From: Bolinopsis microptera
Taxonomy: Eukaryota > Ctenophora > Tentaculata > Lobata > Bolinopsidae
Reading direction: 5' to 3'
DNA length: 60,000 nucleotides
Assembly: GCF_026151205.1 (NCBI RefSeq)
Contig: NC_087074.1
Location: forward strand, 19,452,740-19,512,739
This document shows, piece by piece, positions 164 through 54,500 of the stretch. A program made the translations under genes and the position numbers. The notes below the pieces were generated by a model. The model did no database searches, was not told the origin of the DNA, and worked only from the letters and a program-made list of their open reading frames with translations. The stretch's first letter is position 1; the number at the start of each line of letters is the position of its first letter.

Positions 164-1305
164 GCAATTACTGACATATCTTTCAGAGACAGGAACGTAC
201 ATATTGAGCAATTACTGACATATCTTTCAGAGACAGGAACGTACATATTGAGCAATTACTGACATATCTTTCAGAGACAGGAACGTACATATTGAGCAAT
301 TACTGACATATCTTTCAGAGACAGGAACGTACATATTGAGCAATTACTGACATATCTTTCAGAGACAGGAACGTACATATTGAGCAATTACTGACATATC
401 TTTCAGAGACAGGAACGTACATATTGAGCAATTACTGACATATCTTTCAGAGACAGGAACTTACATATTGAGCAATTACTGGCATATCTTTCAGAGACAG
501 GAACGTACATATTGAGCAATTACTGACATATCTTTCAGAAACAGGAACGTACATATTGAGCAATTACTGACATATCTTTCAGAGACAGGAACGTACATAT
601 TGAGCAATTACTGACATATCTTTCAGAGACAGGAACGTACATATTGAGCAATTACTGACATATCTTTCAGAGACAGGAACTTACATATTGAGCAATTACT
701 GGCATATCTTTCAGAGACAGGAACGTACATATTGAGCAATTACTGACATATCTTTCAGAAACAGGAACGTACATATTGAGCAATTACTGACATATCTTTC
801 AGAGACAGGAACGTACATATTGAGCAATTACTGACATATCTTTCAGAGACAGGAACGTACATATTGAGCAATTACTGACATATCTTTCAGAGACAGGAAC
901 TTACATATTGAGCAATTACTGGCATATCTTTCAGAGACAGGAACGTACATATTGAGCAATTACTGACATATCTTTCAGAAACAGGAACGTACATATTGAG
1001 CAATTACTGACATATCTTTCAGAGACAGGAACGTACATATTGAGCAATTACTGACATATCTTTCAGAGACAGGAACGTACATATTGAGCAATTACTGACA
1101 TATCTTTCAGAGACAGGAACGTACATATTGAGCAATTACTGACATATCTTTCAGAGACAGGAACGTACACATGAGCAATTACTGACATATCTTTCAGAGA
1201 CAGGAACGTACATATTGAGCAAATACTGACATATCTTTCAGAGACAGGAACGTACATATTGAGCAATTACTGACATATCTTTCAGAGACAGGAACGTACA
1301 TATTG
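164..1305 (+). repeat. 44-bp minisatellite spanning a splice acceptor (about 26 copies)
   Basis: A 44-bp unit is repeated about 26 times with few changes. Each unit contains the intron end CATATCTTTCAG followed by the exon start AGACAGGAACGTACATATTG. The last copy is the functional one: after the AG at 1284-1285 it runs on into the MORC exon. The array therefore lies on the intron side of the exon and offers about 26 near-identical acceptors. Marker variants (G to T giving GAACTTACAT at about 457, 677 and 897; TTCAGAAACAGG at about 532, 752 and 972) recur every 220 bp, so five units form a higher-order repeat. As 44 is not a multiple of three and an upstream copy runs into a stop soon after the exon start, only the last acceptor keeps the reading frame. 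Confidence 0.95.
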
Positions 1306-3583
1306 ATCTACAACCTGCGAAAGAGTGCCACCGGAGAGCATGAGTTTGACTTCAAGAAGGATGCAACAGATATCTGTATTGTGGAGGACGAAACAACAAC
1401 AGATAACATGCTGTACGCTCCCCAGGATAGGATCAACACTAATCCTACTACCTATTACTCACTTCGGGTACCTTCCTTGATTTAATATTGCTTCTTTGTG
1501 TGTTCTATATTTCCTCTCTTTCTATAATGCTACTCTGATTTAACTATTAACGTTTCAAACTTTCAGGCATACTGTTCAATCCTGTTCCTCCGACCAAAGA
1601 TGCAAATATTCGTGCGGAGCGTAAAAGTTAAAACTAAACTTATAAAGAAGTCACTCTCTAAGACACTAGTGGATACCTATAGGCCTCAAGGAGTAGACAG
1701 ACTCCAGAAAATAGTGTTTGGTTTCAGTCCTGAGACCGAGAATTATGGGATCATGATGTACTACAGGAACAGACTTATTAGAAGTTATGTCAGAGTCGGA
1801 TATCAAACTAAGGTACGGGCTGCTTGTTGTGATCTCTTACATAGGATATTAAACATTACAATGCTGATATCTTAACGCAAGTGCTACATTGAAGCTGATT
1901 CTCGTTATTTCAGCCAAACAGCATGGGAGCCGGTGTAGTCGGGATTATTGAGTGTAACTACCTTACACCAACTCATAACAAACAAGATTTCGATTACAAC
2001 AAACATTACCGCTCAACCATGTTCGCTTTAGGACAGAAACTCAATGATTACTGGTATGACTTTTTCGTATTATAAACAAATCATGCTATCAGCTGCTAAT
2101 GAACATGGTCCCAGAAATATATTGAGACTGCAAAAACTTTAAATCTGGGCCCTTTTGTGTATTAATAACGAAGAGAAAATAACGGTTGTGTTTTTACAGG
2201 AACGAGAAGTGTGGTGACCAGGAAATGCCCCCGGAAACGGTTTCAGAACTAGTTCCAGACCAACTGTGGGTTCAGTGCGAGAACTCTGACTGTTTGAAGT
2301 GGAGGAAAGTTCCTGGTAACCTTACTCCAGATGACCTTCCTGAAAAGGTGCGTTCTAGTATAGTGCTCTAGTATAGTGCTCTAGTATTAGTATAGTGTTC
2401 TAGTATAATACTCTCACTCAGACTATTTGGAAAAGTTTATTTTTACATTTACGTAGAGTTACCTTACTCCAGATGACCTTCCTGAAAAGGTTCGTTCTAG
2501 TATAATGCTATTTGGAAAAGGTTATTTTTACATTTACGTAGAGTTAAATATGATTGAGCGTTTTTCTTCTTTTTAAAATCATAAAACATGAAACTATTTT
2601 CAGTGGTATTGTAAAGATAACTCGGATCCCAACTATGCGAGCTGTGATTCTCCAATGGAGCAGGAGGAGATGGAACAGGATTCTGAACCTTATGTCAAAA
2701 CCTTTAAACGAAAGTGAGTAATTAATAATTTCACATAACAAATTATTATTAAGATCAATATTTTCACAGTTTACTAATCCTTGAAGAGTCTGCTGATCAT
2801 TTTTTGGCAGATATTTTGTTGATGTTTTGACTTTGCAGTAAGCAGAGGGCAGCAGAATCACAGAGAGTAGCAGACTTGATCATGGAGAGACAAAGACAAG
2901 CTAAGATCATGGAACAAGCGCAAAGAAATCAGAATCAGATTACTGGTGGTCCCGTTTTCACTGTTAGTTTTATTTTCTCTATTATTTTCCCATTCTGTCA
3001 ACTAGAAATAAGGTTTTGAACCTGAAACAACAGCTTATACTTTGCCAGATCACAGATCGTTTTAAAGCCATCATTTGATGTTCAAATAGCGAGTTTGTCA
3101 TGAGCTGTTCCACGTCAGGTTGGTAGCATGCAACGTATCCCGAACGGACCACAAAATGGAGCTAACGGGACAGCTATATCAGTTGATGATGACGAGATTA
3201 GGATTCTACCCTCCTCCCCCGCTGCTCGAACTTTCAACTCTAACCAACCCATCACTTCGCAGGTACTTTATTTGTCAATCAGTTTTTATAACGTGAAAAC
3301 TGAACGCATTACGATCCAATGTTGCTCTATAATAGTAACCCTTATTTTATATACGACATTTCGATGTTCAACACCGTCCAAATATCCCCCCGACAGTAAA
3401 TATTATTTTCTGGGATACTTTACTGTTTTAGGTTGTGTCACAAAACGCGGCAGCTGTAGCCATGAAACAACGCAAACCTAACAACGATGACGATGAGCTC
3501 GTTGTAACAGCTGTAACACAAGGTAAACACAGAGAGACACATTTAGTTTAGCAGTATCGACCAGTAGCGAATGACCGTGTATC

Positions 3584-3617: not shown

Positions 3618-4865
3618 TATCAGGTTTTACCTCCTACTTTAACACATTCTTCTCCCCACAGCGAGAACACCCCTCACGAAACGACCCGCCCCCCAAACCC
3701 CAGTCAACCTGTCTAACAAGAAAAACAAAACAGCCAGCGCACATCTGTTTATCGTAGACGGTCCCAACACGATAAAAGAAATGGGGCTGACCAGCCCTGA
3801 GGACCAACAGATAGTCACTAAACTTGTGAAACTTCACCCTAAAACCAGATGGAATCTCTTAGTTAGCAGAACTCTGCAGCTTAGGGACTTGCGAAGTCAG
3901 GTAACTAATCTCTTAGTTAGCAGAACTCTGCAGCTTAGGGACTTGCGAAGTCAGGTAACTAATCTCTTAGTTAGCAGAACTCTGCAGCTTAGGGACTTGC
4001 GAAGTCAGGTAACTAATCTCTTAGTTAGCAGAACTCAGCAGCTTAGGGACTTGCGAAGTCAGGTTAGTTAGCAGAACTCTGCAGCTTAGGGACTTGCGAA
4101 GTCAGGTAACTAATCTCTTAGTTAGCAGAACTCTGCAGCTTAGGGACTTGCGAAGTCAGGTAACTAATCTCTTAGTTAGCAGAACTCTGCAGCTTAGGGA
4201 CTTGCGAAGTCAGGTAACTAATCTCTTAGTTAGCAGAACTCTGCAGCTTAGGGACTTGCGAAGTCAGGTAACTAATCTCTTAGTTAGCAGAACTCTGCAG
4301 CTTAGGGACTTGCGAAGTCAGGTAACTAATCTCTTAGTTAGCAGAACTCTGCAGCTTAGGGACTTGCGAAGTCAGGTTAGTTAGCAGAACTCTGCAGCTT
4401 AGGGACTTGCGAAGTCAGGTAACTGCAACTAACTAACTATGTATAAATTTAGATTATTTGCTGTATTTGAGTAATTGCTAAGAGTATTCATTATTGACGT
4501 TTGTTGTTTGAGGTTTCAGTTTGAACCATTTCACAGTTCATACCATTGTCCAAATCATCGTTGCAGCTATTCGGTCCCTTTCATCGACTATTTGTTATTT
4601 TCAGGTTTGTGCTTTACTCCAAATGCTGGTTCCAGAGCTTGATCAGAATGCTGTAGGCGTCAAAACGGAGCCAGTGGACGGAACTAAACTCGTCTCACTC
4701 CTAAACCAGGTTTTAGAGGCTAACCAAGCCGGCGACGACGGACCCTCGTCCCAACTCACGACCTCATCAGAGCAACCAGTCAATTCACAAACTGCAAATT
4801 CCTCTAGTTCATCAACCGTAAAAACAGAAATTTTTAATCCATCCAGTTATAGGGGCGCCATTTGA
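1286..4865 (+). CDS. MORC-family CW-type zinc finger protein, 3' part (MORC3/4-like)
   Basis: MORC proteins are nuclear GHKL-ATPase chromatin compactors; MORC3 and MORC4 read histone H3 through a CW zinc finger. Exons read by eye: 1286-1467, 1567-1812, 1914-2053, 2200-2347, 2604-2713, 2839-2962, 3119-3262, 3432-3522, 3662-3900, 4605-4865. All phases join. The first exons encode the S5-like part of the ATPase module ([46 protein letters not shown]). A CW finger follows ([16 protein letters not shown], then WYC and ASC across the next junction), then a charged helical stretch ([19 protein letters not shown]) and a disordered tail. The tail has two acidic-hydrophobic patches ([15 protein letters not shown]) and two psi-K-x-E sites (VKTEP, VKTEI). 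The N-terminal ATPase motifs lie outside the window. Two minisatellites in this gene contain its own splice sites. MORC3 versus MORC4 cannot be decided by eye. Confidence 0.93.
2318..2547 (+). repeat. Two-copy duplication of a MORC exon end plus donor site
   Basis: The end of the CW-finger exon (2318-2347, ending CCTGAAAAG before GT) and the following intron bases are repeated from about 2462 with the same exon end, donor (GTTCG instead of GTGCG) and CTAGTATA stretch. The flanking TTATTTTTACATTTACGTAG is also present twice (about 2437 and 2524). Between them lies a short CTAGTATAGTG-type repeat (2353-2412). This is a single duplication of an exon-intron junction, in the same gene as the two larger junction arrays. 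Confidence 0.85.
3586..3616. repeat. Poly(C) tract, 31 bp
   Basis: An uninterrupted run of C in the MORC intron, about 45 bases upstream of the exon starting at 3662. The exact length may be unreliable in an assembly. Confidence 0.9.
3853..4422 (+). repeat. 54-bp minisatellite spanning a splice donor (about 11 copies)
   Basis: The unit starts AATCTCTTAGTTAGCAGAAC and ends GCGAAGTCAG followed by the donor GTAACT. Copy 1 is the 3' end of the MORC exon 3662-3900; the other copies extend into the intron. Copies begin near 3853, 3907, 3961, 4015, then a shortened 43-bp copy, then 4108, 4162, 4216, 4270, 4324 and another shortened copy. Because 54 is 18 codons, the frame stays open through the first four copies, each encoding an 18-residue repeat (core [15 protein letters not shown]). 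The shortened fifth copy brings a stop at 4069-4071. Using the donors at 3954, 4008 or 4062 would thus add 18, 36 or 54 residues. Confidence 0.95.
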
Positions 4866-6610: not shown

Positions 6611-6644
6611 TGATGGTATGAAAGTAATCTAATTCGGTGTATTT

Positions 6645-7499
6645 TTGAACGCTGATTCCGAATCACCATCCATGATCGGTAAAAGCAATAAGCATCCTAC
6701 GGGAGGATCTGCAATCACTCAAACCACCCTGCCGAATCAATATAACCTTTACACATTTTGCTGGGCACAAACTGAACAGATATATAGGAACACCTTTCGT
6801 TTTAACGTGGATACTCTTATTAATACTATTGATTTTATTTTAGATAATTTATATTTTAGCATGGGGAATATGACTTTTAGACAAATTATTGGTGTCCCTA
6901 TTGGGGTAAACCCAGGACCCTTTATTGCTAATCTTACACTTTTTTATTATGAGTATAAATATTTAGATAAACTCTATAGGATTGATTATTATAGCGCTAA
7001 GAGACTTAATAACACGTTTAGATTAATTGATGACATTACTACTATTAATTCTGATGGTGTCTTCCAGGAGCATGCAGCCAATATTTATCCTGATAGTTTA
7101 ACTCTTAATAAGGAGAACACCGAGGACACTAGTGCTCATGTCCTAGATTTGAATATCTCTATAGTTGAAGGTTATTTTATTGTAGAAGTTTATGATAAAC
7201 GGGACGATTTCCCTTTTAATATAGTCCAATATGCCCCTAAATGTAGTAATATGTCCAGAGATGTTTTTGGGTCGCAACTAGTCAGATTTTTTAGAATTTG
7301 TAATCAGTTTGAAGGTTTTAGGAAACGGGTTGAACTGATGTTAAACGCGTTTATTAAATTAGGTTTTGATAGGAAGCTGTTGAGTAACAAATTCCGACGA
7401 ATAGCTGAAAAACATGGATTTCAGAAGAAGTTTGACATGATCAGTACACTTGACTACTTGTTTGAGAACCGATTACCCCGTCACCTCACTTGCTCCTAG
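6645..7499 (+). pseudogene. Reverse transcriptase fragment of a retroelement
   Basis: An open frame of about 284 codons with the palm and thumb region of a reverse transcriptase: GVPIGVNPGPFIANL, then FRLIDDITTIN (the catalytic DD motif preceded by I), then the block YPDSLTLNKENTED, LDLNISIVEG, VYDKRDDFPFNIV and SQLVRFFRICNQFEGF. These blocks are familiar from RT-bearing repeats common in marine invertebrate genomes, probably in the Penelope-like group. The N-terminal part of the RT and any endonuclease are missing, and the first codons before about 6730 are probably unrelated sequence. It is a truncated copy; intactness of the remaining frame suggests moderate age. The exact clade is not resolved. 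Confidence 0.7.
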
Positions 7500-8977: not shown

Positions 8978-10264
8978 CAGGGTGGCCCATAAGTGACTAC
9001 CCACACGCAACCTCTTAATAACTCACGTAATTCGTCTCCAAATTGCACCAAAATTTCAGAGATTATAGATATGGGTCAAACTTAGATTTCCTGAAAGTTT
9101 CGTAAGCCACGCCCAATTACAGTGGGCGTGGCGTGACACTCCCTCTTTTTCACTATTGTCTTCATAAAATGAGAACGCTTTAAGCTAAGAACTCAAAATT
9201 TTTTGCACACATTTAGCTTGATAATTGAAAACCTTTCCCAAAGTTTCAAGTTCATTGGTTAAAATATGGCTAAGTTATGACCATTTCAAAACTCATCGGA
9301 TACGTGATCCGAGTACTCAGTCAGTGATCTCGTCACTTGGTTAATGGCCTGCACATGCACCGCTTGATTGGTTGCAGCCTGCTTATGGGCCGGCCTATAC
9401 AGCTGACTGCACCTAAAACGCTATCACACGAATTTATGATGGTGTCACCATTTCAGGGCTTGTTAGCCCTGCTAGTCACAGGTTCCATACAATCAATAAA
9501 AAGGAATGAACCATCCATTGAATCATCGAACCGGGCCTACCGAATCACAAAGAAACACAAACTTTTGGACCGTGATTTCCAATCGAGGATAGATTTCGCC
9601 AACACATTCCTGTCCAAGCAGAATGTGGATCCCTACTTTGAGGACGAAATCTGGTACAGCGACAAGGCCATATAAACGGATATGTCAACTCCCAGAATGC
9701 AATTCACTGGGGCTCTACTAGACCGGATGAAGTGGTGGAGAGAACGGCTTTTCCTGAAAAGTCACGATCTGGTTTTTATCCAAAAAATTTGTGTTTCCCT
9801 TTCTAGCAAAGTCATCATCGGTATCCAATCAAAGCCTAATGAACCTCATTAATACACGCTAACGCCTTACTCTTGATCAGATTGGGTGACGAGATCACTA
9901 ATTGAGTGCAAATATCACTGACTGAGTGCTCGGATCACATATCCGATGGATTTTAAAATGGTCATAACTCAGCCATATTTTAACCAATGAACTAAAAACT
10001 TTTGGAAAAGTTTTCAATTATCAAGCCAAATGTGTGCAAAAAATTTTGAGTTCTTAGCTTAAAGCGTTCTCATTTTATGAAGACAATAGCGAAAAAGAGG
10101 GAGTGTCACGCCACGCCCACTGTAATTGGGCGTGGCTTACGAAACTTTCAGGAAATCTAAGTTTGACCCATATCTATGATCTCTGAAATTTTGGTGCAAT
10201 TTGGAGACGAATTACGTGAGTTATTAAGAGGTTGCGTGTGGGTAGTCACTTATGGGCCACCCTG
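8978..10264. mobile_element. IS630/Tc1-mariner-like element with about 350-bp inverted repeats
   Basis: The element starts CAGGGTGGCCCATAAGTGAC at 8978 and ends with its reverse complement at 10264, flanked by TA on both sides (8976-8977, 10265-10266), as expected for this superfamily. The inverted repeats are unusually long: about 8978-9330 pairs with about 9895-10264, with scattered mismatches. The interior holds only a decayed piece of transposase, described separately. Confidence 0.92.
9480..9790 (+). pseudogene. Broken IS630/mariner-type transposase fragment
   Basis: Frame 1 reads ...RDFQSRIDFANTFLSKQN, DPYFEDEIWYSDKAI and stops at 9673-9675. Shifting frame just there continues NGYVNSQNAIHWGSTRPDEV...EKSRSGFYP. 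Together this matches the family block around the second catalytic aspartate (IW.SDEA, then NGYVN..N...WG). The first and third catalytic regions are missing and the piece is frameshifted at about 9670, so the copy is inactive. The open frame upstream of 9480 has no recognisable transposase. Confidence 0.8.
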
Positions 10265-10266
10265 TA

Positions 10267-14718: not shown

Positions 14719-14790
14719 TGATATAAATTATAAATATTAGACGAAACAATTTTATCAATATAATATAATTTATCATTTCATTTAGTGAAT

Positions 14791-17700: not shown

Positions 17701-20700
17701 ACATCACATCGAATTTTTCAGCCTGATCTCCAAAAAGAAAAGGAGATTGACCCAGATTACGATCCTGAAGACGATTTCGACGACAAAGAGTTCTTGTCTC
17801 CTAAAGGTACGGATGTGTGGAAAAAATCGATATATACCACTTCAAGACTCATATCTTGATTCTTTGTTGACCCTCAACTCAACAAAACCAATTTTCTCTT
17901 TTTTTTCATTATAGGTACATCGATGTCACTGTGATTTCATGAGTTTTGATGTTACAAAGAACCCAATTTTCGTAATAACCGTCTCAATTTTCAAATCTTA
18001 CCATTTTCAGATCTTGAGTCAGCAGCTTTCGCAAGCAGATTACCTGCCGATCGTATGACGAAACAGGAAGCCATTAGTTTCTCTGAAATTTTCAACGTGA
18101 AGGATTCCCAAGCTCACTTTCTTTACATTAGAAACAGACTGGTAAGTTGCTAGTGTTGCTTTTATATTGTCTTTTCAGCTTTCGACGTTATTGGGTCGAT
18201 CCATAATCCATAATCCATTCCGACAAGACCTTTCTTGATTCGTTCAATTGATACAATCAGAGGCTCATACACATTGAACGCCCGCCCCCTGGCCCTCCCA
18301 CATTATCTGATACATATTCTGTTAGTTGTTTGTCTGGTTGGAAGACCCGAAGAACAAGCTCACTGTTGAAAACGCTCTGCCCAGAATAGAGCCTCCTCAC
18401 AACGGTTTAAAATTAAACTATTATATTTGATTAATGACGACAATTATGGCAAAATATGTTATATATATTACTATTAAAAATCATTTGATTACTTCGGTTC
18501 AATAGCATTGACATACAATCACTGTTATTTGTACTGATGTGTCTTTTTCAGAGGATGAGGAGTTGGTAGAACGTGTTTATGAGTATCTGAACAGATACGG
18601 GTTTATAAACTTCGGAGTGTACGCCTCACCCAAACTCCCAGAACCCTCCTCGACCGCTCCTAAAGTTCTTGTTGTCGGTGCTGGTATATCAGGTAATACA
18701 GCGTATCAATTTTAGTTGATGACTGTGAGGGGGATGGAGCTATAAACTTTTTTCATCTCCTCGGATTAAGTAAAGCTATAATTACTGCACTGCACGTCAA
18801 CTAATTACATTTATTTAGGTCTTACAGCTGCAAGACAACTCCAAGAATTCGGAATTAACGTGGATGTTATCGAAGCTCGATCCGTTGTTGGCGGCAGAGT
18901 TTGCACCTTTAAAGACGGAAACTACGTTGCAGATCTGGGTGCAATGGTGGTAACAGGCCTTGGAGGGAACCCACTGGCAGTGCTCGCCAAACAGCTGAAC
19001 CTAGAATTGATGCCAATAAAACAAGATTGTCCGCTGTACGAATTTACAGGACAGATGGTTCCCAAAGAGCGTGATGAGCGGGTTGAGCGGGAGTTTAACA
19101 GGTTGTTAGAGGCTACAACCTACATGTCACACCAATTAAATGTGAACAGCATCAACGGTAGGCCGGTATCTCTTGGTCAAGCTCTGGAGATTATTATTAA
19201 GTTGCAGATAAGGCAGGTAAAGGAGAAGCAGCTGAAGCATGGGCGTGAGAGGTGCGAGATTCAGGAGAAGTTGAACCATATTCAGCAAGCATTGTTCCCT
19301 CTTCACGAGAAAATCAAAGACTCTCACTCCAAATACTTGGGTAAGCAGAACAGATCATGAATTTTATCTTATGAAAGGGTTTTAATGATCCACTTATTAA
19401 TTTCAGTAGACCAAGTTCTGTTGGCTTTCATTACCAATCTGTAATCGAAATGAGCTCACTTTCAAAACTTTTTCCTCAGAATTAAAAATGAAGCATGAGG
19501 AACTCTCAGACCAACTTGGTGAAGTTATCCGGGACCAAAAGGCCGAGTTTGAAGTCAAAGCAGCCTACAAGGTCATGTTGGAAACATTCGCTGAATACGA
19601 CGCTCTCTTGAAAGAACAACAAGAGCTTGAGGTTCAGTTGACAAAAATGGAGCAGATGGTCCCCAATGAGATTTACATGACCCCCCAAGAGAGACATGTT
19701 TTAGATTGGCATTGTGCCAACCTGGAGTTTGCAAATGCGGCCCCTCTCTCGGCACTATCTTTAAAACACTGGGACCAGGACGACGATTTTGAGTTTACTG
19801 GAAACCATCTCGTTGTTCATGACGGGTAAGGATTATTGTGTATTAATTTCTGGTAAAATCAGCAATATTTTTTATAAATAAAAAATTTAATTTCTAGAAC
19901 CTAATAGAAGTATACTATTTTTACTATTTTAAGCGATCTCGTATGCCTAATAATGTTATAACGTTATTTTTCAGGATGTCAACAATAACAGAAGCAATGT
20001 CCAAGGGTCTAAACATTCGCCACAATACCGCGTGTGTCGGCATCAAATACACGGACAGTGGAGTTGAAGTAGCGACAAGAGAAGTGAACCAAGTTAACAG
20101 CAGCTGGGCAACCAACACCACAAATACCATCACTGCAGATGCTGTGCTGTTGACAATCCCTCTGGGGGTTCTTAAGAAGGAGAAACTGAAGTTCGATCCG
20201 CCTCTGCCTGAGTGGAAGACGTCTGCTATCAAGAGGATGGGATTCGGCAACCTCAACAAGGTATTTTAGTTCTATTTTTTCTTAACAATAACATTCTCAT
20301 TTTTATTGTAAAATAAATAAAATATTGTATAATTAAATAACTTTATTAATTAACTTGATGGAAAAGAAAGAACTTCAACAATGTTAAACAATTACTGGCT
20401 TCTATTTTGGTTTTTCGAATTCATTCTGGGATATATCTGAAAAATGAAAATACGTTCTCAATATCTTTACTGTGAACATTGAACACACTCGTAAGACGCG
20501 GTCTTTGTACAATGTAATAGACTCATTGCTCATTACAATCCAGTATCTCCAAGCCACGATACAGCATAAGGACATAATATAAGGTGCAGCGGTAACCCGT
20601 GCTATGCTAATGTGAAAGAGGAGAGTCCGTTATCGTGACTATTCTTGGTCTTATGCACTTTGATACTCGATATCATCATTTTCATCCGTTGAGATATTAA

Positions 20701-23700
20701 TTTCCTTTTTGTAGTCAGTTGTTCTCTTCAATGATTCAAGACCTCTTCTGCTGTCTTTTTCATCTTTAAAGTCCTTTAACTGATCTTGCAGCTTTTTGAT
20801 GAGGGCATCATTCTCGACCTTTTCTTTCGAAAGTTTTTTGATTTGGAAATATTTTTTCACTGCATATACAACCAACCCTATACAAATCAATGTCATGAGA
20901 GATACAGCTAAGGAGGCATTCTTGTCCAAATTTTCGGTGTCTATCCTTTTGGTGTCGTTGACGGGACAGTTATTTTGAACAGTTATTTTGGGACAGGTAT
21001 TTTGAACTACAAGAGACTTGCAAGATAAATATACATCTTTGCTGTGGATACAATCATGGGACGTGGTGTAAGAACACGACTTCCAGTTCCCCTCACTGCA
21101 TATCACGTCGTCGAGAGCTACACGATATTCTGACTTCTCAAACGAAGTTCTCCAACTCTGTACTCCAGCATAACCCATCTCCCTACAAATAGCATCAGCG
21201 GAATTGTCACTAAAATAGTCACTGCAGACTGTACCACCATTATAAAGGAGTAGGAACTGTTGATGACCGGAGACTTGCGCTCCCGAGAAATTCACCAGAG
21301 CAAACGGGCTTCGATTTCCAGAACAATTGAGGAAAACATCTTTAGTGTGATCATTGCAAACTTGCAGCTTTATGGCGCTCCTTAACGAGCAAGATGACCA
21401 GTCATTTTCTAAACAAGTTAAAGTGTGAGAAAATATTTCATAATCCTCTTGAATTTTCCATATTTTACCGGAAACCCAAGATGACGCTCCCTCAAACCCC
21501 ATAAGTTTACAAACAGCGTGTGCGGCAGTGATATTGAAGTTGATATCGCATAAGGTGCCGCGATTATAGAGCAAAAGACCATTTTGTTGACTTGTAATGT
21601 AGTGTCCTGAAGCATCCACTAATTGGAATTGATCTGAAATATATCATGGTTTTGGTCCTAAGTTAATGGTACATGCTCGGAAATTAATTTGATCTTATTA
21701 AAAAACATTGAACTTCTAAAAATGTTCTCCAACCATTAAAAATGTTCTCCAAAAATGTATAGCAGAAAATCAAAGACTCTCACTCCAAATACTTGGGTAA
21801 GCAGAACATATCATATTTGAATGACCTTTAAAAGGTCTTTATTAGTTGTGATAGACTTGTTAATGGTGGATTTTGATTCTTCCCCGGGGAAGCTTGCGTA
21901 AAATTCTAATTTCGTCGTCATTTTTCCGGGAAAAATCTTTGTAAGTTGAAAGTGAAAATGGCTATGAAAGAGCCATAATAATTTGATTATCAATTTATAT
22001 AACAAAAAATGGTAATTTAAACGAATTCTTATCATATTGAGTTTTTTAATTACTGCTAAAACTCCCAATGCTTACTTTTTCTAATTCCAACGTCACGACA
22101 ACGTTTGTCTTTAGTATTAGATGACCAGAGAATGTTTCTCTTTAAACCATCAGTACTGTACAACACGACCTCATTGTCGTCCTGTACCACTAATTCTATG
22201 TCTTCAAAATGGCCTTCCGTATCAGTACTCCATACTTGACCATAGGATGGATCGTACAGCACCAAGTTACCGGCATCCTGGAAAAATCGGGAAATGGTGA
22301 TTCACATATTGCGTAATTATCATACTCACTCGCCCCCTCAGTAATCACTTTGAAACATAGTTTTGGTGTAGAAATAACGCCTAACCATTTTAAACCCCTC
22401 TTCCCCCTTTCTCTGAGTGATACCGTTGTAAATGAACGTAGTCACTAGTCGTATAGTTCACACTTCGCTTATTTTCAATATGAAGACATTTTCCAAACCT
22501 GCATTTCAAGTCCTCGGTCAATGCTTTTTCCCTCTGTGCCCGACGACCATAATGTTTCGTCATTCTCTGTACAGTAAAGTACTAGATTTCCATCTTGTTG
22601 CAACTCAAAATTAATCTTTCCATTCTTTGATGTAAGTTTGCGACCTTTCCTGAGTACCTCTGTCCTTCCTCTTTTTCGCACAATTCTATCGGATGTAATT
22701 GTAATATCTGAAACGGTAAGAATAGATGTATTTTCTCAGCCCGGGTTCATAATCAGTTTGTGGAATCTGGATCCTATGGCAATAGTTAAAAAACTTATAA
22801 AAAAGGCGCATCTCCCTTCCGTGACCCCGTTTTTTTCGCAAGTAAAATCCTTGGATTGATGCAGCGTTTCTTGGTATTAGTTAGCGCGATAATACAAACT
22901 GAGTGAAAGTGCAAAACACAGATTTTTAGATAGTAGATTTTATCAAGTTTTTGGTTAAAGTTTTTCTCATAAAACGATATTCCATAAAATAATTTTTTCT
23001 GTTAAAAAATATGCTAACTTGATGGCTCACCTGCTGCAGACATACCAATCAGCGTTACTAACAACAAAAACATGGCACTAATCGAACAACTGCGGCGATC
23101 GTGTCTGATTTTCATGATTATCATCTGCTATATGTACAGTTCTAGGGGTTTACATTAAAATATATTATATAATACAAATGCGATGGTAATCTCTCGATAA
23201 CACCATCTCTAGTAAATTGTAGCGTTTTAATAACTTAATTGTTCTATGATTTATCGTTGTACTTCTAACTCAACTTAGGTACATTTTATGTATGTTCGTT
23301 ATCTCAATAATTATCTCAATTAAGAAAATTTCAACTTTTGAAGTGAAGGCAAAACATGCATAATATCATGTACTAATGAAGAGCATAAATACTACTAAAA
23401 TCGGCAAGCATTAACAACCTATTTACAACTAACTACTAAGACAACAGTAAGAGAACAGACCTGAACAGACCTGATTACATCTACACTCTACAGCGTTACA
23501 CTAAAAACTCGATCAGAGCATATTATTACATACGGAGTGTTATGTTACAGAATTTAACTCAGTATGAAAGTACAAGTTGGTTACATGTGGCTGACAGTGA
23601 CTTGTTCTCTATAATAATAATAAGATTAAGCTTATTTGCTGATTCGATGTCTGCAAAAAACCCTTGGCCTTGAGCACGTCTTATATTACATTTAAATTTT

Positions 23701-26700: not shown

Positions 26701-29700
26701 TGAATTTCCGAAATCATTTATGTCTGATTTTGGTTTGGAAGGCGGGAAAACTCTATATAATGAGGACGATACACGGATACAGTTGATTGAAGTATAGCCC
26801 GGCAGTTGATGTAAACATCGTCACAAAATGATACAAAATCGTAAATGGACACGTTCATGTTGAAGTTTAAGGGTATTGGTAAACCAAAAAAAATAGCGTG
26901 TTCAGAAGTTCTGTACATTAGCCACGTGACCCATACTTCCATATACACGGCTCATGTCAGAAATACAATTTATTGTTTTTAGGCACTATAATGTAAAAAA
27001 TGTCACATTTTTGTGACTGTGTTAACCATAGCTGCCCAATTAGCATTTTTTGGTTTAAAATATAGTAGATTAGGTCATTCTAACAATTATGATACAACAT
27101 TTGGCTAAAGGGCAGGGATCGAACGGTTTTAAGGCAATATTCCGTAAACTTTGTCACACTCAGAATACGATACCTCTTTTCTACTGTGAGGTGTCCTCAA
27201 AACCCTTTCAACTCATTATTTGATGGTTTTTCTACTAATCATAGCCCTAAAATATGTTGTTTTGAAAAGTTAGCAAATACATGCACTTATTGGGAAATGA
27301 TGTAAATTCTGTCACATTATATGGAATTTAAAATTTTGGGTGAATTGCCGAAATCATTAATATCTGATTTTGGTTTGGAAGGCGGGAAAACTGTATATAA
27401 GGACGATGCACGGATAGAGCTGATTCAAGTTAAGGGCAGTTGATGTAAAAATTGTCACAATAATAATAAGGGCAGTTGATATGAAAGAAAATCTATCTAA
27501 CTAATGCAATGGCTGATGTGACGAAATTTACATTTCTTGACCTTATTTTGAAGAAACATGCCTCGATTAGAATTCAATATTCTTCCAGGAATTATTAGTA
27601 GGTTATTATTCAGCAAATCAGAACTCAAGTTTAACAATTCTGAGTTTAATTTTACTGAGTTACCGAAATGTGACGAAATTCACTTTTCCTGCCCCAACAG
27701 TATAATTTCAATGTGATGAAAAATGGGCATGGGTTTCTATATTTCCTTATCTCTGAATTAATCATTTCAAACTATAATTAGGACTGTTGATGTGAAAGAA
27801 CGTGTATCTAAATTTTACAATGACGTATGTGACAAAATTTACATTTCTTGACCCTATTTTGAAGAACCATACCCCGATTAGAATTCAATATTCTTCCAGG
27901 AATTATTAGTAGGTTATTATTCAGCAGATCATCAGAACTCAAGTTTGACAATTCTGAGTTTAATTATACTAAGTTACCGAAATGTGACGAAATTTACTTT
28001 TCCTGCCCCAACAGTATAATTTCAATGTGATGAAAAATGGGCATGGGTTTCTATATTTCTTGTATAAATCCATTCCAACTATAATAAGGGCAGTTGATAT
28101 GAAAGAAAATCTATCTAACTAATGCAATGGCTGATGTGACGAAATTTACATTTCTTGCCCCTATTTTGAAGAATCATACCTCAATTAGTATATAATGTTA
28201 CTTTATTACCATCACTATGTCGATAAATTAGTTATTTTGCCAACACGGAGCAAATAAAGTTATAATATTTTTTGTGACGAAATTTACAAATTTTTACCCT
28301 GTTCAGGTGTTGAAATTTATCCAATGTTAACATATCACTGCCATATAATAATTTATATGACCGGCGTATGGTTGAAATATTGTTAATTGATCCATAGTAC
28401 GTAATATAGGGTGTTTAAGTTGGTACACTAATATTTACTCAATTTCACACATGTTGAGATATCATACAAATTTATGTGACTAAATTTACCTATTTCTGCC
28501 TTCTGTATTTGTATTTGCGTATAACAATGAAATATGTGAACAATTCCAAACACATTCAGCTCACAAAATAATGCTAGACTATTCGGCATTTCTTGTCAGG
28601 ATGTCATAAACATCCCTCATATAAATTTATTAAATGTGTGACGGAGTTTACATGGTGCTACCATTTAAGAAAAAAAGTCGCTAAATATGTAGATAATAGT
28701 CATATACAGCTATTCTATGAATTGAAAATTCGAAAATTTGGTCAAACACGGCAACAAGGGGTCCATATAAACTCCGTCACGTTTTTATAGTGTGACAAAG
28801 TTTACAACTCACTGCCGGCCGCATTTAAGCGATATCTTATCGTCTGATAAAGATATCGTTATGCGACAAAGTTTATCTAAAGGATGAAACGATTATCTTA
28901 GGGTTAGAGGGTTTATATAGTTTCATAGTGTGACACATTTTACATCATCGTGCCATTCAGTAGGGTCACTAATATTTACCAATATCCTCAAACTTCAATG
29001 AACGTGTCCATATACTATACCCTGATGCATAAACATAGCACACATTCTTTTTGCTATTGATTGTAACTGCCCCGCAACTGAAAGTGTTTTATCAGTGAAA
29101 GAGAGATCACTGCGAAGCGAATTTGATTCGAAAATCTAATATTTACATATATAGATTTATACTGTATATATATATATTTCGTTGCTGTACTCCTACACAT
29201 TAAAAGTCGGTGTTGATTAGATCCTCGAAATAGTTCTTTGCATCATTTTATTAAACATCGTTATCTCAAATTATTTGTTATATAGTAGTGTTGAAAGTAT
29301 TAAAATATATATATCATCAACTCACTTCGGATACTGTTTGCAAAGATTAACACATCCCTGCTCGTTGTTGACTCGTTGTTGTGCGATCACATCTCCCCGT
29401 ATATTTAGATTGGCAACAAAACAATTCCCTGAATTTAAATGCAATATGTTTTCATTGTGCATTTTTGAAAAGCCTACCTCTCTAATAGATAGAACTAAGG
29501 GGATTTCTAAGAATTGGTAGAAAGAATGATTTTTTTTTTTTTTTTTTAGAGAGGCTGGGCCTGGATGGCTAGTAGTGGCAACTGGCACATCGTCTTCTAA
29601 AATTCTTCAAATTGTTCACCCACAGACCAGTTTTACGTGCTCTATGCGTAAAATATTCATAATTGGATTGTAGTTTTTTTCTCATAAATTCCTTTATTTT

Positions 29701-42415: not shown

Positions 42416-43151
42416 TCACGTGTCTAGCAGCACCATATCACGTGTCTAACAGCACCATATCACGTGTCTAACAGCACCATATCACGTGTCTAACAGCACC
42501 ATATCACGTGTCTAACAGCACCATATCACGTGTCTAACAGCACCATATCACGTGTCTAACAGCACCATATCACGTGTCTAACAGCACCATATCACGTGTC
42601 TAGCAGCACCATATCACGTGTCTAACAGCAACATATCACGTGTCTAACAGCAACATATCACGTGTCTAACAGCACCATATCACGTGTCTAACAGCACCAT
42701 ATCACGTGTCTAGCAGCACCATATCACGTGTCTAACAGCACCATATCACGTGTCTAACAGCACCATATCACGTGTCTAACAGCACCATATCACGTGTCTA
42801 ACAGCACCATATCACGTGTCTAACAGCAACATATCACGTGTCTAACAGCAACATATCACGTGTCTAACAGCACCATATCACGTGTCTAACAGCACCATAT
42901 CACGTGTCTAGCAGCACCATATCACGTGTCTAGCAGCACCATATCACGTGTCTAGCAGCACCATATCACGTGTCTAGCAGCACCATATCACGTGTCTAAC
43001 AGCACCATATCACGTGTCTAACAGCACCATATCACGTGTCTAACAGCACCATATCACGTGTCTAACAGCACCATATCACGTGTCTAACAGCACCATATCA
43101 CGTGTCTAGCAGCACCATATCACGTGTCTAGCAGCACCATATCACGTGTTG
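42416..43151 (+). repeat. 22-bp minisatellite with an E-box in each unit (about 33 copies), derived from an LSD1 exon
   Basis: The unit is CACGTGTCTAACAGC plus ACCATAT, repeated about 33 times with minor variants (TAGC for TAAC, AACATAT for ACCATAT). Every unit carries the palindromic E-box CACGTG. The same 22 bases occur once in the LSD1 exon at about 37903-37924, where CACGTG also flanks both sides (coding [10 protein letters not shown]). The array begins about 290 bp after the LSD1 stop and ends at CACGTGTTGCAGG. Confidence 0.95.
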
Positions 43152-45557: not shown

Positions 45558-48500
45558 TTATTTCTTATCCAGCGGTTTCTGAGCTACACTCCGACCGTTC
45601 CACTGTAATGTGTTTTGCAGTCCGTTAAACCAGTCCTGCATTGAGCCCTCTTTGTCTATACATGGTAATGGGTACTCTGAGGCGCTCATCTCAACTCTGG
45701 AGTGGGAGGAAGAGTTATTAGTTTCAGGGGGGGACATACACCAAAACCTTTTTTGCCGGGACCCTTGATTTGACTTCATATTATGAAAATAAATATAAAG
45801 ACAATATGATTTGAAACAGTAGTTAGAATGATGTTGGCCTTTTAGATAGCTGACAATGACACTATATTCTATATTTAAATATTCTATATTTGTAATGAAA
45901 TGAAATGAAATGAAATGAAATGAAATGAAATGAAATGAAATGAAATGAAATGAAATGAAATGAAATGAAATGAAATGAAATGAAATGAAATGAAATGAAA
46001 TGAAATGAAATGAAATGAAATGAAATGAAATAAAGCATTTTTATCCCGCTTATATCAACAATCCAAATAAAAAATAAAGATTGCCGATGTCAAAGCGGCT
46101 GGCCTCGCGATATAATCCAAAAACTAGATACTCAATATATGAATATACTAGTAACAAATATAAAAACCAAAAGTACTTATTTGACATTTTTTTAAAATAA
46201 ATTATCACACACGGTAAAAACTTATGGACGTATATCACTCATTATTATGTATCACTCTCTAACATCTTGTCCTCACTACAAATGTTACCACTTCTGATAT
46301 AATAATGTTTTTTAGTGTCTTCTTTGGCTATCTGTTTCATTTCAGTCTCAATTTTTTGGCATTTACTAATATCTGATGAACGGTACTAGAATTACCTAGC
46401 GAAACTTTGACTGGTCTCGTCTTGTCGGCTGATTTCCTCCCAACCCAGATAGCTGCAAAACGTGGTTTTTCATCAATCTGCTGAAAAATCACGTCAACTT
46501 TATCGCACTGTTTCTCTTCATCAGTCTCCTTCAAACCAAAGATGAGCACATTCCTACTGCGATCCTCTTCCGATACAGCATTCTGTACAACCTTTTTCAA
46601 ACTCTCTTCTGTAAGCACAGGTGCAGTTTTAGTCACAGCTTGACTGTATGACTTCATCTCAGCTTGGACAGTGTCTTGAACGGCGGTCTTGACGGTGGAG
46701 TGCACGGATTCCAACTGCTTCGATTTAGTTTCCAGAAGTTCAGCCTGCAGCTTGATAACAGTATTTTGCGATCGGATAAGATCGCTCTTCAACTCCTCCA
46801 TATCTTTCTTTTCACAACTTACAACACTATAAATAAAGTTAAAAGCAAAGTACTTGGAGTTATCACAGCTACACCAACTATTTTACACTTTCTTTACCCA
46901 CATCAGAGCTGGTCACCGCACACATCATTTGCCCACTATGGCTACATAACGGGGACCTAGGTTTGTTATCCAGATAACACCACTGTTTGAACAGTACAAC
47001 ACAGAGTCCGCACTAAAACATACATTGTATTCAGGTTACAGTAACCGTGGTGTAATTGGCGTGGTAGCGGTGACGGGGTAGTGTCAGGGTAGCTGTGTAG
47101 TGTACAATTAGCCTGTGTATGCAGACAATTGTCCACCTCGTTCTACTGAGTGCAGGTGGTTCCAGAACCTTCTCACTCTACACTGCAGGTTTCTACTGAG
47201 TGCAGGTGGTTCCAGAACCTTCTCACTCTACACTGCAGGTTTCTAACTCAGTGCAGCTGGTTCCAGAACCTTCTCACTCTACACTGCAGGTTTATACTGA
47301 GTGCAGGTGGTTCCAGAACCTTCTCACTCTACACTGCAGGTTTCTACTGAGTGCAGGTGGTTCCAGAACCTTCTCACTCTACACTGTAGGTTTCTACTGA
47401 GTGCAGGTGGTTCCAGAACCTTCTCACTCTACACTACAGGTTTCTACTGAGTGCAGGTGGTTCCAGAACCTTCTCACTCTACACTGCAGGTTTCTACTGA
47501 GTGCAGGTGGTTCCAGAACCTTCTCACTCTACACTGCAGGTTTCTACTGAGTGCAGGTGGTTCCAGAACCTTCTCACTCTACACTGCAGGTTTCTACTGA
47601 GTGCAGCTGGTTCCAGAACCTTCTCACTCTACACTGCAGGTTTATACTGAGTGCAGGTGGTTCCAGAACCTTCTCACTCTACACTGCAGGTTTCTACTGA
47701 GTGCAGGTGGTTCCAGAACCTTCTCACTCTACACTGCAGGTTTCTACTGAGTGCAGGTGGTTCCAGAACCTTCTCACTCTACACTGCAGGTTTCTACTGA
47801 GTGCAGGTGCTTCCAGAACCTTCTCACTCTACACTGCAGGTTTCTACTGAGTGCAGCTGGTTCCAGAACCTTCTCACTCTACACTGCAGGTTTATACTGA
47901 GTGCAGGTGGTTCCAGAACCTTCTCACTCTACACTGCAGGTTTCTACTGAGTGCAGGTGGTTCCAGAACCTTCTCACTCTACACTGCAGGTTTCTACTGA
48001 GTGCAGGTGGTTCCAGAACCTTCTCACTCTACACTACAGGTTTCTACTGAGTGCAGGTGGTTCCAGAACCTTCTCACTCTACACTGCAGGTTTCTACTGA
48101 GTGCAGGTGGTTCCAGAACCTTCTCACTCTACACTGCAGGTTTCTACTGAGTGCAGGTGGTTCCAGAACCTTCTCACTCTACACTACAGGTTTCTACTGA
48201 GTGCAGGTGGTTCCAGAACCTTCTCACTCTACACTGTAGGTTTCTACTGAGTGCAGGTGGTTCCAGAACCTTCTCACTCTACACTGCAGGTTTCTACTGA
48301 GTGCAGGTGGTTCCAGAACCTTCTCACTCTACACTGCAGGTTTCTACTGAGTGCAGGTGGTTCCAGAACCTTCTCACTCTACACTGCAGGTTTCTACTGA
48401 GTGCAGGTGGTTCCAGAACCTTCTCACTCTACACTGCAGGTTTCTACTGAGTGCAGCTGGTTCCAGAACCTTCTCACTCTACACTGCAGGTTTCTACTGA

Positions 48501-51500
48501 GTGCAGGTGGATCCAGAACCTTCTCACTCTACACTGCAGGTTTCTACTGAGTGCAGGTGGTTCCAGAACCTTCTCACTCTACACTGCAGGTTTCTACTGA
48601 GTGCAGCTGGTTCCAGAACCTTCTCACTCTACACTGCAGGTTTCTACTGAGTGCAGCTGGTTCCAGAACCTTCTCACTCTACACTGCAGGTTTCTACTGA
48701 GTGCAGGTGGATCCAGAACCTTCTCACTCTACACTGCAGGTTTCTACTGAGTGCAGGTGGTTCCAGAACCTTCTCACTCTACACTGCAGGTTTCTACTGA
48801 GTGCAGCTGGTTCCAGAACCTTCTCACTCTACACTGCAGGTTTCTACTGAGTGCAGGTGGATCCAGAACCTTCTCAATCTACACTGCAGGTTTCTACTGA
48901 GTGCAGGTGGTTCCAGAACCTTCTCACTCTACACTGCAGGTTTCTACTGAGTGCAGGTGGTTCCAGAACCTTCTCACTCTACACTGCAGGTTTCTACTGA
49001 GTGCAGGTGGTTCCAGAACCTTCTCACTCTACACTGCAGGTTTCTACTGAGTGCAGGTGGTTCCAGAACCTTCTCACTCTACACTGCAGGTTTCTACTGA
49101 GTGCAGGTGGTTCCAGAACCTTCTCACTCTACACTGAAGGTTTCTAACTCAGTGGATGTATCCGTGTTGTAGTTAAACAAGGGAGCCGGGAGGCTCTGTG
49201 TAGACCACACTTAAGAACAGCTACCCTCCTGTGTCAGCACAGTGGCTCTGTGGAATAGTCAATTCTCATAATTATCATCTTTGGCTTGTAGCTCGAAGTC
49301 CGATGAAAGGAACCCTTAGTTTTACAAATTGACCTTGACCATGGGTACCTTCTACAGAAAATGTTTGGTCAGTGAGAGAACTTATCCACCCTGTTTAAAA
49401 GTATAGGGATCATCATTTGTAAGTTATCGGGTCATCGCCGAGATATTACCATGAAGTTGCAGTGAAGCAGATGTCTACTTCAATCTCATGATGAGTTTCT
49501 CGTCTCATCTTTACTGGAAATTAATATGAAGCATATGTGTTTAATAAACATTACCGTTAATATTACGGGTCTTTAAATTCTATTTCAGCGTACCAGCAAA
49601 ACAACAATTCTTCTTATAATATCTTAGTTCGGAGATGGAGGTTGGTTATGAAGTTGCGCAATGCGCATAAATCAGCCCTGGGTTGGACTAGACCCTTCAA
49701 GTTCAATCATGATATTGAGCTTGATGGAACTAATCTACGGGCCATAAACTCATAAACATAATACTCGACGATTAGAGCTTATCACTGGTCGAGGTGGCCG
49801 ATTAATCGTCCATTTATGAAGAACAAAATTTACTTCACTACTTTTACTAATATGTGTTACTGAACGTCTTCATACAGGGATAGCAGCTTATTGAGTGTTA
49901 TTGAGATGGCACTAATAATATAATCTAATAGCTGTTGTTCGTTATTCATTTGAAATCTTTTTTTCATTCACTTGACAAACATAATATTCAATAAGTACAA
50001 CTTATTTAAAAAACTATTTTAAAAACGTGGTTGTAACTAGAAAGTTCTACATTATTCAGTTACTGAATAAGTAATATGTAAATTTGATAAGTAAATCTTA
50101 ACTTACACATGATTTTTGGTGAAGTCTTGTCTGTGTCTGCCGTCGAAAGAGATAAGAGCATCTCCTCTCGCATCATTGTTGAGCTTGCACTGAAAATAAA
50201 TCCTGTTAGATGAAACATCGAATCCTATGAAACTGTCGTAACAACTCCCATTCATTCCAATATTAATTTGTAACTCCGAGGATAATGAACGTGCAGCATA
50301 GTTTGAATATCAATCATATGGAAAGGCCATGTAAGGTGTAATAAATCACATAAATTTGCAAACATGTATTACGTGTTGTATATTACGATGTATGCGATGG
50401 TGGATTTATCAAAAGACAGTGACCAAAACTGCTCAAATATTTGTAAACTGTAGTCTAGGTAGATTTGTAACAAAGCAGGTTTGACAATGACAGGATGATG
50501 AAGATGCCAGGTGTAGGAGTCGGACAAAGAAATATTATAGTATTCGGTAAAGAGAGACATTGTCTTCTTATAATACTTGTGTGCTGACACCAAAGAATTT
50601 GATTTCAGCATCATTACAAGAGAGGAATACCGGCCCACTAAACCTGACCATTCTTAAACACATTTTCGTAATCTGAGCTGTTCTTACAACTCAACAAAAT
50701 GGGATCCAGTCTCACCTTCAAGATGCAGTTAAGAGGTACCATGATTGGTCTAAAGGAGAGGGAGTGAGGACAGATGGGGGTAATAATAGAGCAAGGAACA
50801 GAGGGTGCCACAATGCTGGCTCCAGTTGCTGCTGCGTACGCGGTGCTGCCGGTCGGGGTGGCTACAATAACACCTGTCAGGAAAGGGGTCGTTAGTGGGG
50901 TGTGGCTTCAAAGTGTGGATAAGTTTATAATGTTATATTAATCGTAAGTTTAATCAGTTCGATACAATAGGTTACGAAAAATATCACATTCCATACAAAT
51001 ATTTTTAAAACTACGTTTAATGTGACTTTTAAAGCTCGAATTTCAGAAGTTTTCTGCTCAGAAGTATGGAGGAACTGGCGTGATTTATTCTCTGATAAAG
51101 ATGTTGTGACTGATGTGATTTGAATGTCATACATTTAAGTTCTGCTTTTTAAGGGGAAGATATAAGATTTGGATGTCATACATTAAAGTTCTGCTTTTTA
51201 AGGGGGAGATATAAGATACGCATTTACCGTTATTGAGACCACTGATGATTGATGGATGAAGGTAACATTACACCACTTTTATGACGCAAGGTTCGAGAAT
51301 AAATGACTTTAGCACCAAACTACATTCTATATCCCTACATGTATACTGAAAACTGATGTATAGCAGTAAATACAGAAAGCTAGGAGGAGCATGCATTTCC
51401 CGTAAATTATCTTTGGCCTAGGCCTAATGAGGCACTGGGCCATAGTTATTAGTTAATTGCCTATGAAAGAGTGTGGGAGCAATTCTATGCTACAACCTTT

Positions 51501-54500
51501 TACCTCAGTTAACCTGTTCAATTTTTGGTATAGTATTAATAGATTATAGATTGATTCCATTGCTAACGTGTATAACAGAAACTTTTGCCAGTTGTAAAAC
51601 CATCTTGTTGTACAAACTAAATCGTGCTTGTTAAAATGACTATTTAAACAAACCAATTTAGTTTACCATCAATGTGACCGATGCACTTCACCCGTTTGAA
51701 ACGTAACTTAAGACTAAGTAATTGACCGTTTATCTTTGATGTGACACTTGGCATGGCAATGGAAAATGTTAAAGCCAATTGAGAAAACTAAGGACCACTG
51801 TCAGACCACATGCGGTTATAAGAAACCAATCAGAAATGTGGCACAAAGTTGGCAGTTTCATCACCTTACCGGCTGGTGTAATTTCTCAGGGAACGTTAGG
51901 TGTTTGAACTTTGAAGGTCTTATTTTATCCCCTTTCATCTCATCTTACCACGTGAAAATTTACAAAAGCGTCATTCGAATTTCGAACATAAACGATAGTA
52001 GCAATATTGTGGGAAGTTTCACGATATATATCTATAGAGTATAGACTCATTTTAATAACGCTTTAGAATTAAAGATGTATTTTATATTATGGGACTCAAT
52101 AATTTTAATTTTGAGCAAGTTCAAATTTGCAAAATTTGCCACACCACGATAAACAGTATTAAGTGAAATAACTATTAAAAGTGCGTCCCCTGCCAGACAA
52201 AACGCTAAATCTTCGTACTGGCAAGTTCAAGCTATCAGAAACACATGGTTTGTATCTGCGATTTAAAGCAAATCTTCTAGTATATAATCATCTAACATAA
52301 ACATAATGAAAACCAACCATCGCCGATGACTGTGGTTACGAAGAAGTCGTCGCAGTAAATGTCGATCATGCAAACTCCGGAGTAGATTCCTCGGTGTATC
52401 ACCACCTCGTTCAATACCTGGTGACAAGGGTGTACTTTTAGTAAATACTTCCTACACTAGTAATCCTCGGTGTATCACCACCTCGTTCAATACCTGGTCA
52501 CAAGGGTGTACTTTTAGTAAATACTTCCTACACTAGTAATCCTCGGTGTATCACCACCTCGTTCAATACCTGGTCACAAGGGTGTACTTTTAGTAAATAC
52601 TTCCTACACTAGTAATCCTCGGTGTATGACCACCTCGTTCAGTACCTGGTGACAAGGGTGTACTTTTAGTAAATACTTCCTACACTAGTAATCCTCGGTG
52701 TATCACCACCTCGTTCAATACCTGGTCACAAGGGTGTACTTTTAGTAAATACTTCCTACACTAGTAATCCTCGGTGTATCACCACCTCGTTCAATACCTG
52801 GTGACAAGGGTGTACTTTTAGTAAATACTTCCTACACTAGTAATCCTCGGTGTATCACCACCTCGTTCAATACCTGGTCACAAGGGTGTACTTTTAGTAA
52901 ATACTTCCTACACTAGTAATCCTCGGTGTATCACCACCTCGTTCAATACCTGGTCACAAGGGTGTACTTTTAGTAAATACTTCCTACACTAGTAATCCTC
53001 GGTGTATCACCATTCACCACGTCGTTCAATACCTGGTCACAAGGGTGTACTTTTAGTAAATACTTCTACACTAGTAATCTCCTCGGTGTATCACCACCTC
53101 GTTCAATACCTGGTCACAAGGGTGTACTTTTAGTAAATACTTCCTACACTAGTAATCCTCGGTGTATCACCACCTCGTTCAATACCTGGTCACAAGGGTG
53201 TACTTTTAGTAAATACTTCCTACACTAGTAATCCTCGGTGTATCACCACCTCGTTCAATACCTGGTCACAAGGGTGTACTTTTAGTAAATACTTCCTACA
53301 CTAGTAATCCTCGGTGTATCACCACCTCGTTCAATACCTGGTCACAAGGGTGTACTTTTAGTAAATACTTCCTACACTAGTAATCCTCGGTGTATCACCA
53401 CCTCGTTCAATACCTGGTCACAAGGGTGTACTTTTAGTAAATACCTAGTCACAAGGGTATACTTTTAGTAAATACTTCCTACACCAGTTGTTGAATAGAG
53501 TTGGAGGTTGAGATCTCCAATGGAAATTTAAATTAAACTCATAAGGCTTCACGAGGTTGTCATCTTCAATGATTTTAACCGCAAATTTTATTGATAACAC
53601 TGCAGTTTTGTGTCTTTTTAAGGTATCCACGCATACAACCATGCAACTTGTGCGTCACATTTCTTATTGTACGGTTTTATGGATAATTCTATAATTTTCC
53701 ATGCGATCAATGTTTCTAAGCAAATACAATACCTTATCGGACCTTATTTGACTGGACATTAAATGAACGGACATAATTATGAACGGACATTAAAATGAAC
53801 GCTCGAAGGCATTTAAAACCATCAAAAATCCTGATTTTTAATTTTTTTTGCGTTTTAAACATTTTAGCAGATAATTTGTAAATTAATTTTTCATACAATG
53901 AGCAAGAAAGGCAGTCGTTAAGCAGTAAAAAATGTCAAAATATCTGTAGATCAGTGTCTATGATTATGAAAGTTGTGTAAAAACAACAGATACGAAATAT
54001 GACCAGATTTGATGATCATATCACAGGTCATCTTTCTCAAATGGGTTATCGTGCATTAAATATTCCATGCTTAAAGCATCATATCAGTAATACCTGCTTT
54101 TTGAAAACAATTATTTATTTGACCACCTCGGTCCTGCATTTCAGTGTAAACTTTTACAAGATGTGGAGATAAATAATAACTCCGAAGAAGTGAACGAAGA
54201 AGCCAAAGATCAAGAAAGTGATCATGCCATAGTGTGATACTTAGAATATTTAAATTGTATAATAACTCGTTTTTCATTGATCCAATGATATAGTTTAGTC
54301 CGAATCCGATGATAGAAATTACAATTGACTGAAATTAAAAAGTTATCAGATCCTAAACATGAGTTCGCAGTGGAATAATTTTGGAAAAATCTGGACGGAC
54401 TTTAACTTGGACGGACTTTAACTTGGACGGACTTTATTTGAACGGACATTAAGATGAACGCTAGGACCGCCAGCGTTCAATTAATGTCCGTTCAAATAAG

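Follow-up and report, generated by a model that had tools for sequence, protein, structure and literature searches.

Minisatellite-like tandem duplications that lie over intron/exon boundaries, with the true junction kept, have been described in amphioxus under the name of 'mirages' (PMC3087553, PMC3902484). In these reports, mirages are found in the globins BflGb6 and BflGb9, units of 10-72 bp are cited for Adh3, both boundary types (acceptor and donor) can be duplicated, the copy number of the BflGb6 mirage varies between haplotypes, and reverse-transcription PCR suggests undisturbed regular splicing (PMC3087553); a mirage in PGBD5 is added and troponin C is mentioned (PMC3902484). Internal tandem repeats at exon-intron boundaries, some of them tied to altered splicing, are also reported for human genes in segmental duplications (PMC2812944). 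In this study, the tandem arrays of a 60,000-nucleotide stretch of Bolinopsis microptera DNA (the window, C3:19452740-19512739 of a 264,652,675-base, 232-contig genome), which holds MORC, LSD1 and NAD kinase (NADK) genes, were investigated together with their surroundings.

The class has thus already been named, and the 44-bp and 54-bp arrays of MORC and the 76-bp array of NADK are mirage-type minisatellites. Like the amphioxus mirages, their units span the intron/exon boundary and the authentic junction stands beside an intact exon; they differ in having up to 26 near-identical units, in the presence of two splice arrays within a single gene and in an analogue at a stop codon. The human repeats (PMC2812944) share the overlap of minisatellite units with exon-intron boundaries, but they were chosen for an exon/intron change between paralogues and have a mean unit of 30 bp in ~4 copies. 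The main additions made here are the stop-codon case, the comparison of the locus with its second copy and the calculated outcome of decoy use. As the literature searches were not directed at stop-codon border arrays, we do not claim that these are unreported, and a new mechanism is not shown by the present evidence.

Arrays at splice junctions of MORC and NAD kinase

The preliminary description had reported three arrays whose units straddle an exon border, and this was confirmed by running Tandem Repeats Finder (TRF) on the window, by joining the exons and by reading the units. The features concerned, each with its basis, are as follows.

163..1306, plus strand: 44-bp array of 26 units (26.0 copies by TRF) at a MORC acceptor; TRF and unit reading
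1286..1467, plus strand: MORC exon after the 44-bp array; in-frame join and gap-free alignment to 5ix1
3662..3900, plus strand: MORC exon before the 54-bp array; donor frame tests in both locus copies
3853..4424, plus strand: 54-bp array of 11 units (11.0 copies by TRF) at a MORC donor; TRF and unit reading
52318..52417, minus strand: NADK exon after the 76-bp array; exon join, 9cr4 alignment and site scores
52388..53444, minus strand: 76-bp array of 14 units (13.8 copies by TRF) at an NADK acceptor; TRF and unit reading

By reading, the 44-bp unit comprises 24 intron and 20 exon nucleotides, with a TACTGAC branch-point-like motif, a CTTTCAG acceptor and the first 20 nucleotides of the exon. 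The 76-bp unit likewise holds 46 nucleotides of the intron end with the acceptor, followed by 30 exon nucleotides, and the 54-bp unit consists of the last 48 exon nucleotides plus GTAACT (6 intron nucleotides), two of the units being only 43 bp long.

The best-supported candidate for the working junction in all three arrays is the exon-proximal copy, as had been proposed beforehand, and several lines of evidence bear this out: open frames, the alignments to 5ix1 and 9cr4, the stops reached from decoys and a donor test in a second copy of the locus. In MORC, where the exon starts at 1286, directly after TCTTTCAG, nine exons were joined and the frame stays open across the array junctions; the alignment of the product with MORC3 (5ix1, E 2.2e-129; also 6o1e) is gap-free where it crosses the 44-bp junction. 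The predicted working acceptor of this array is therefore that of the last, exon-proximal unit, and both upstream acceptors tested in register lead to a stop soon after the exon-derived part of the first extra unit; a further tested position was shifted out of register by one base, owing to a unit of 43 bp. In NADK, the predicted working acceptor is again that of the exon-proximal unit, at which the minus-strand exon begins at 52417. Eight exons joined maintain an open frame across the 76-bp junction, and in the alignment with 9cr4 (E 1.2e-73) the residues flanking it are adjacent; a gap of two residues is seen one residue upstream of the junction, and the upstream exon aligns poorly. All three upstream acceptors tested reach a stop soon after the exon-derived part of the first extra unit.

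For the 54-bp array, the working donor is most likely that of the first, exon-proximal unit. In the window, donors 1-4 of the 11 keep the frame open, donors 2-4 adding 18 residues each, and the seven later ones reach a stop; in the second locus copy the frame is kept by the first of nine donors alone and the other eight give a stop, which points to the exon-proximal donor as the working one. The structure searches made returned no solved structure covering the part of MORC at this array.

Site scores were obtained from a matrix of 21 window acceptors and 18 donors, from which the 44-bp acceptor and the 54-bp donor were left out; sites used for training are bound to score high. In the 44-bp array, scores run from 2.9 to 4.1 over the 26 acceptors (training range 4.0-11.2), and since the working one scores 3.9, it is no better than its decoys. 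The 54-bp donors (5.1-6.1; training range 4.3-7.6) score like curated donors. In the 76-bp array, a stronger acceptor variant is present in three of the 14 units, including the exon-proximal working one (3.2), and a weaker variant in the other 11; most decoys score 0.5. For the right protein to result, a donor must ignore 25 decoy acceptors, and an acceptor as many as 10 decoy donors. Boundary minisatellites are in this way natural test cases for spliceosomal choice between many near-identical sites.

These properties also bear on whether the arrays are functional, either as redundant splice sites or as a source of new exons or introns through intron gain by tandem duplication. A branch-point-like motif precedes an AG acceptor in every 44-bp and 76-bp unit, every 54-bp unit has a GT donor of curated-like score, and donors 2-4 of the window yield in-frame 18-residue insertions. 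Intron gain from a duplication crossing an intron-exon boundary is reported for the potato RNA-dependent RNA polymerase (PMC4974935), and intron gain by such duplications is proposed for amphioxus globins (PMC3087553); boundary minisatellites would be a visible first step of this proposed route. The new potato intron is, however, spliced, whereas the protein models here need no new intron or exon. Given also the early stops from the tested upstream acceptors and from donors 2-9 of the second copy, the weaker acceptor variant in 11 of 14 units of the 76-bp array, and unit numbers that are unstable between locus copies, we consider a functional role highly improbable.

The second locus copy and an array at a stop codon

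A second copy of the locus lies on the same contig, ~259-280 kb away (259 kb at the 44-bp array, more further on). The duplicated span runs from ~15 kb left of the window (-15008) to ~52311, compared with C3:19690000-19789999, and the pieces listed, of at least 300 bases and at least 85% identity, are 88-99% identical with gaps and differing insertions between them. The second copy has error-rich stretches, among them that of the 76-bp array, and a run of N within which the LSD1 3' end falls; it may thus be an uncollapsed haplotype, which we hold to be probable, and is possibly a real segmental duplication. An empty-site comparison was attempted and proved uninformative, since both MORC arrays are present in the second copy and the NADK and LSD1 stretches are affected as described.

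Unit numbers differ between the two copies: 26 versus 22 in the 44-bp array, 11 versus 9 donors in the 54-bp array, and 40 versus 99 in a 50-bp array of NADK. The 44-bp arrays have the consensus and one variant type (G26A) in common, the window's array showing a 5-unit pattern three times, and the second copy's 54-bp array takes a 99-bp higher-order form.

In the right flank, a 34-bp array of 27 units (window coordinates 72263-73177, minus strand) was found whose unit is the last 34 nucleotides of a zinc-finger-like reading frame, the TAG stop included. The second copy has 10 units at this border, the last of them incomplete, and a single base differs between the copies in the coding part shown (by eye). 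A Pfam search on the frame gave weak zinc-ribbon matches, all under the curated cut-offs; by eye, we take the spacing W-x-C-x2-C-x3-N-x6-C-x2-C to be of RanBP2 type. This case suggests that the class may be better defined by the coding/non-coding border than by splicing.

Exact searches of the whole genome (264.65 Mb, one piece per unit) found the 44-, 22-, 50-, 76-, 54- and 34-bp units nowhere but here and in the second copy, where the 44-, 50- and 34-bp pieces matched exactly and the 54-bp array differs from the piece searched. A dispersed satellite or introner-like element was rejected on these searches, to which diverged copies are invisible, and the simplest reading of the confinement is that the arrays arose in place. 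Rfam gave no match in the window, and microhomology at the array ends amounts to none or 1 bp (by eye).

Junction overlap and the origin of the arrays

We consider that these mirage-type arrays probably resulted from chance tandem duplication followed by purifying selection and turnover of the arrays. By chance, a tandem duplication of ~30-80 bp would span a coding/non-coding border, whether acceptor, donor or stop codon; the outermost coding-side copy would still join the same exon or end the frame, leaving the protein unchanged, and for that reason the duplication would be tolerated by selection when on the non-coding side. The array would then grow and become homogeneous through unequal exchange or slippage, and duplications lying wholly in coding DNA would persist mainly when the frame is kept. 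Of the two readings offered in the preliminary description, namely selection for arrays that spare the product and a mechanism seeded at splice junctions, the former fits best. The unit lengths agree with it in a small sample: those not divisible by three (44, 76 and 34 bp) belong to arrays on the non-coding side, and that of a predicted wholly exonic 117-bp array is a multiple of three. The latter array, of four copies at window coordinates 88813-89283, is predicted to lie within one open exon.

The extent to which junctions are favoured was estimated by counting overlaps. In the curated genes MORC and NADK, six arrays with a unit of at least 10 bp and at least 2.8 copies were counted, one of them just left of the window and an AATGA microsatellite left out; the null model placed one unit of each length randomly, wholly exonic placements being left out. 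Three of the six lie at junctions against 0.93 expected (P of three or more = 0.040), the genes having been chosen post hoc for the pattern they show. The earlier expectation that ordinary minisatellites should ignore exon borders overlooks how often a random unit in a gene with short introns touches one. The chance of overlap is 28% and 34% in the MORC arrays; in NADK it is 0.09 for the 50-bp array and 0.13 for the 76-bp array.

A wider set, drawn from the window, 100 kb of flanking DNA, 40 kb of C1 and 20 kb of C5 (220 kb in all, 202 kb once collapsed), comprised 30 arrays; a GGA array and the second copy of the locus were left out. A first form of our home-made gene finder was over-fitted, with one 'gene' of 600 exons, and it was rebuilt with stronger penalties. 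Under three settings the rebuilt finder counted 2, 2 and 3 overlaps with junctions against 0.99, 1.18 and 1.63 expected, the third scored overlap being the stop-codon array. This finder was trained on the curated exons of the window and supplied the expected values as well. It runs adjacent genes together and recovered the NADK 76-bp junction under none of the three settings, so its counts serve as a rough control only. After correction by hand, three of the 30 arrays lie at splice junctions, all among the six of the window; none of the 24 outside arrays (160 kb) was found at one by this imperfect finder, most of them not being hand-curated and only L014, L016 and part of L018 having been inspected by eye, and one of the 24 is the stop-codon array. 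The excess of arrays at junctions is thus weak and post hoc, and an enrichment beyond chance is shown neither by the curated genes nor by the wider set.

Against this background, preferential seeding at splice junctions, for example through R-loops, pausing or co-transcriptional nicks at exon edges that provoke short tandem duplications, appears unlikely. Three of the four arrays with more than eight copies and a unit of at least 10 bp in the two curated genes straddle a splice junction, and two further single copies involve donors. Yet the chance overlaps given above are already sizeable for MORC, the outside arrays add no splice-junction case, and a stop codon bears a similar array without any splice site, leaving the seeded mechanism unsupported.

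A purely random origin, in which array positions are arbitrary and selection is unneeded, would be favoured by the 0.99-1.63 junction arrays expected among 30, compared with three after hand correction, by the post hoc choice of the window, and by the fact that the 'non-coding' side depends on which site is assumed to be used. Nearly all tested decoys would nevertheless break the protein, and the arrays must therefore be spliced out; frame-breaking unit lengths, moreover, are confined to the non-coding side in the small sample at hand. We regard chance without selection as quite improbable.

Several points weigh against duplication followed by selection, in which the duplication mechanism, the selection and the splicing past decoys are what we infer. 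The nominal excess of three in six over 0.93 leaves room for some true seeding bias, and the gene finder, having missed the NADK junction, could have missed others. The polarity of the stop-codon array is automatic, because the first stop always ends translation, and all that this case shows is therefore that an array at a border can do without a splice site. Silent splicing past the decoys is assumed, and the 54-bp array need not be silent, as donors 2-4 of the window are in frame. Finally, some of the differences in unit number could be assembly artefacts of the error-rich second copy.

That this animal harbors boundary minisatellites in abundance across its genome, at acceptors, donors and stop codons alike and above what random placement and selection would give, seems doubtful to us. 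If it were so, mirages would be a general class and not a peculiarity of amphioxus or of splicing.

LSD1 copies and other features of the window

Besides the junction arrays, the following arrays and local copies were listed.

2319..2509, plus strand: MORC donor piece with its single copy; local-copy scan, also in the second locus copy
19308..19358, plus strand: LSD1 exon end and donor, source of a 51-bp copy; local-copy scan, source also in the second locus copy
21764..21814, plus strand: 51-bp copy of the LSD1 donor region, in the long LSD1 intron; 98.0% identity
37900..37931, plus strand: LSD1 coding segment matching the 22-bp array unit, with the array match from 42413; local-copy scan
42416..43149, plus strand: 22-bp array of 33 units (33.4 copies by TRF), exon-derived and not at a junction; TRF and match to an LSD1 exon
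47141..49154, strand not assigned: 50-bp array of 40 units in the last NADK intron, a counter-example; TRF and homology placement

The single duplications of junction pieces noted earlier were recovered, that of MORC being a 49-bp piece (2319-2367) repeated at 2461-2509 with 95.9% identity, in which the second donor reads GTTCGT, and that of LSD1 being the 51-bp copy listed above. The exonic derivation of the LSD1 22-bp array was upheld as well. This array is placed downstream of the LSD1 stop, ~4.5 kb from the source exon, and the source segment carries a TCACGTG...TCACGTG direct repeat; TCACGTG is found in the window's source allele and in the array, and TCATGTG in the second locus copy. The 51-bp and 32-bp LSD1 copies resemble templated insertions at repaired breaks, which are short nearby copies of local DNA. 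The 22-bp array and the 51-bp copy may have begun as short nearby-templated insertions, the array then expanding through its 7-bp direct repeat. In the local-copy scan, with array-internal pairs set aside, a curated exon is touched by three source-copy pairs and by none of the rest; as curated exons make up 8429 of 63000 bases (13.4%), exonic sources of short local copies are not clearly over-represented.

A 36-bp duplication in two copies at 14789-14861 amounts to 12 codons of the LSD1 N-terminal reading frame. The 17.6-kb LSD1 intron (20262-37849) contains minus-strand SRCR-domain genes, with Pfam PF00530 in the open reading frames 20651-21643 and 24095-25042, and 33135-34082 resembles a further copy.

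No exon was recognised within the 50-bp array in the last NADK intron. Its reading as an NADK exon or as a stop-codon array was rejected, since the NADK C-terminal exon lies further on, at 45591-45695 (tblastn E 1.1e-05, the query being a human fragment).

The long open frames 30523-31953, 6633-7499 and 46337-46882 have no Pfam match, and by eye they are reverse-transcriptase-like or other retroelement pieces, the first ending in what we presume to be a GIY-YIG-like stretch. On C1 (5002491-5018214), three separate arrays have one common 19-bp unit in ~74 copies each and stand ~7 kb apart, spaced as if borne by a repeated element. Lastly, a DNA transposon-like segment with long inverted ends (~8990-9300 and 9950-10265, by eye) was observed at 9000-10260 of the window.

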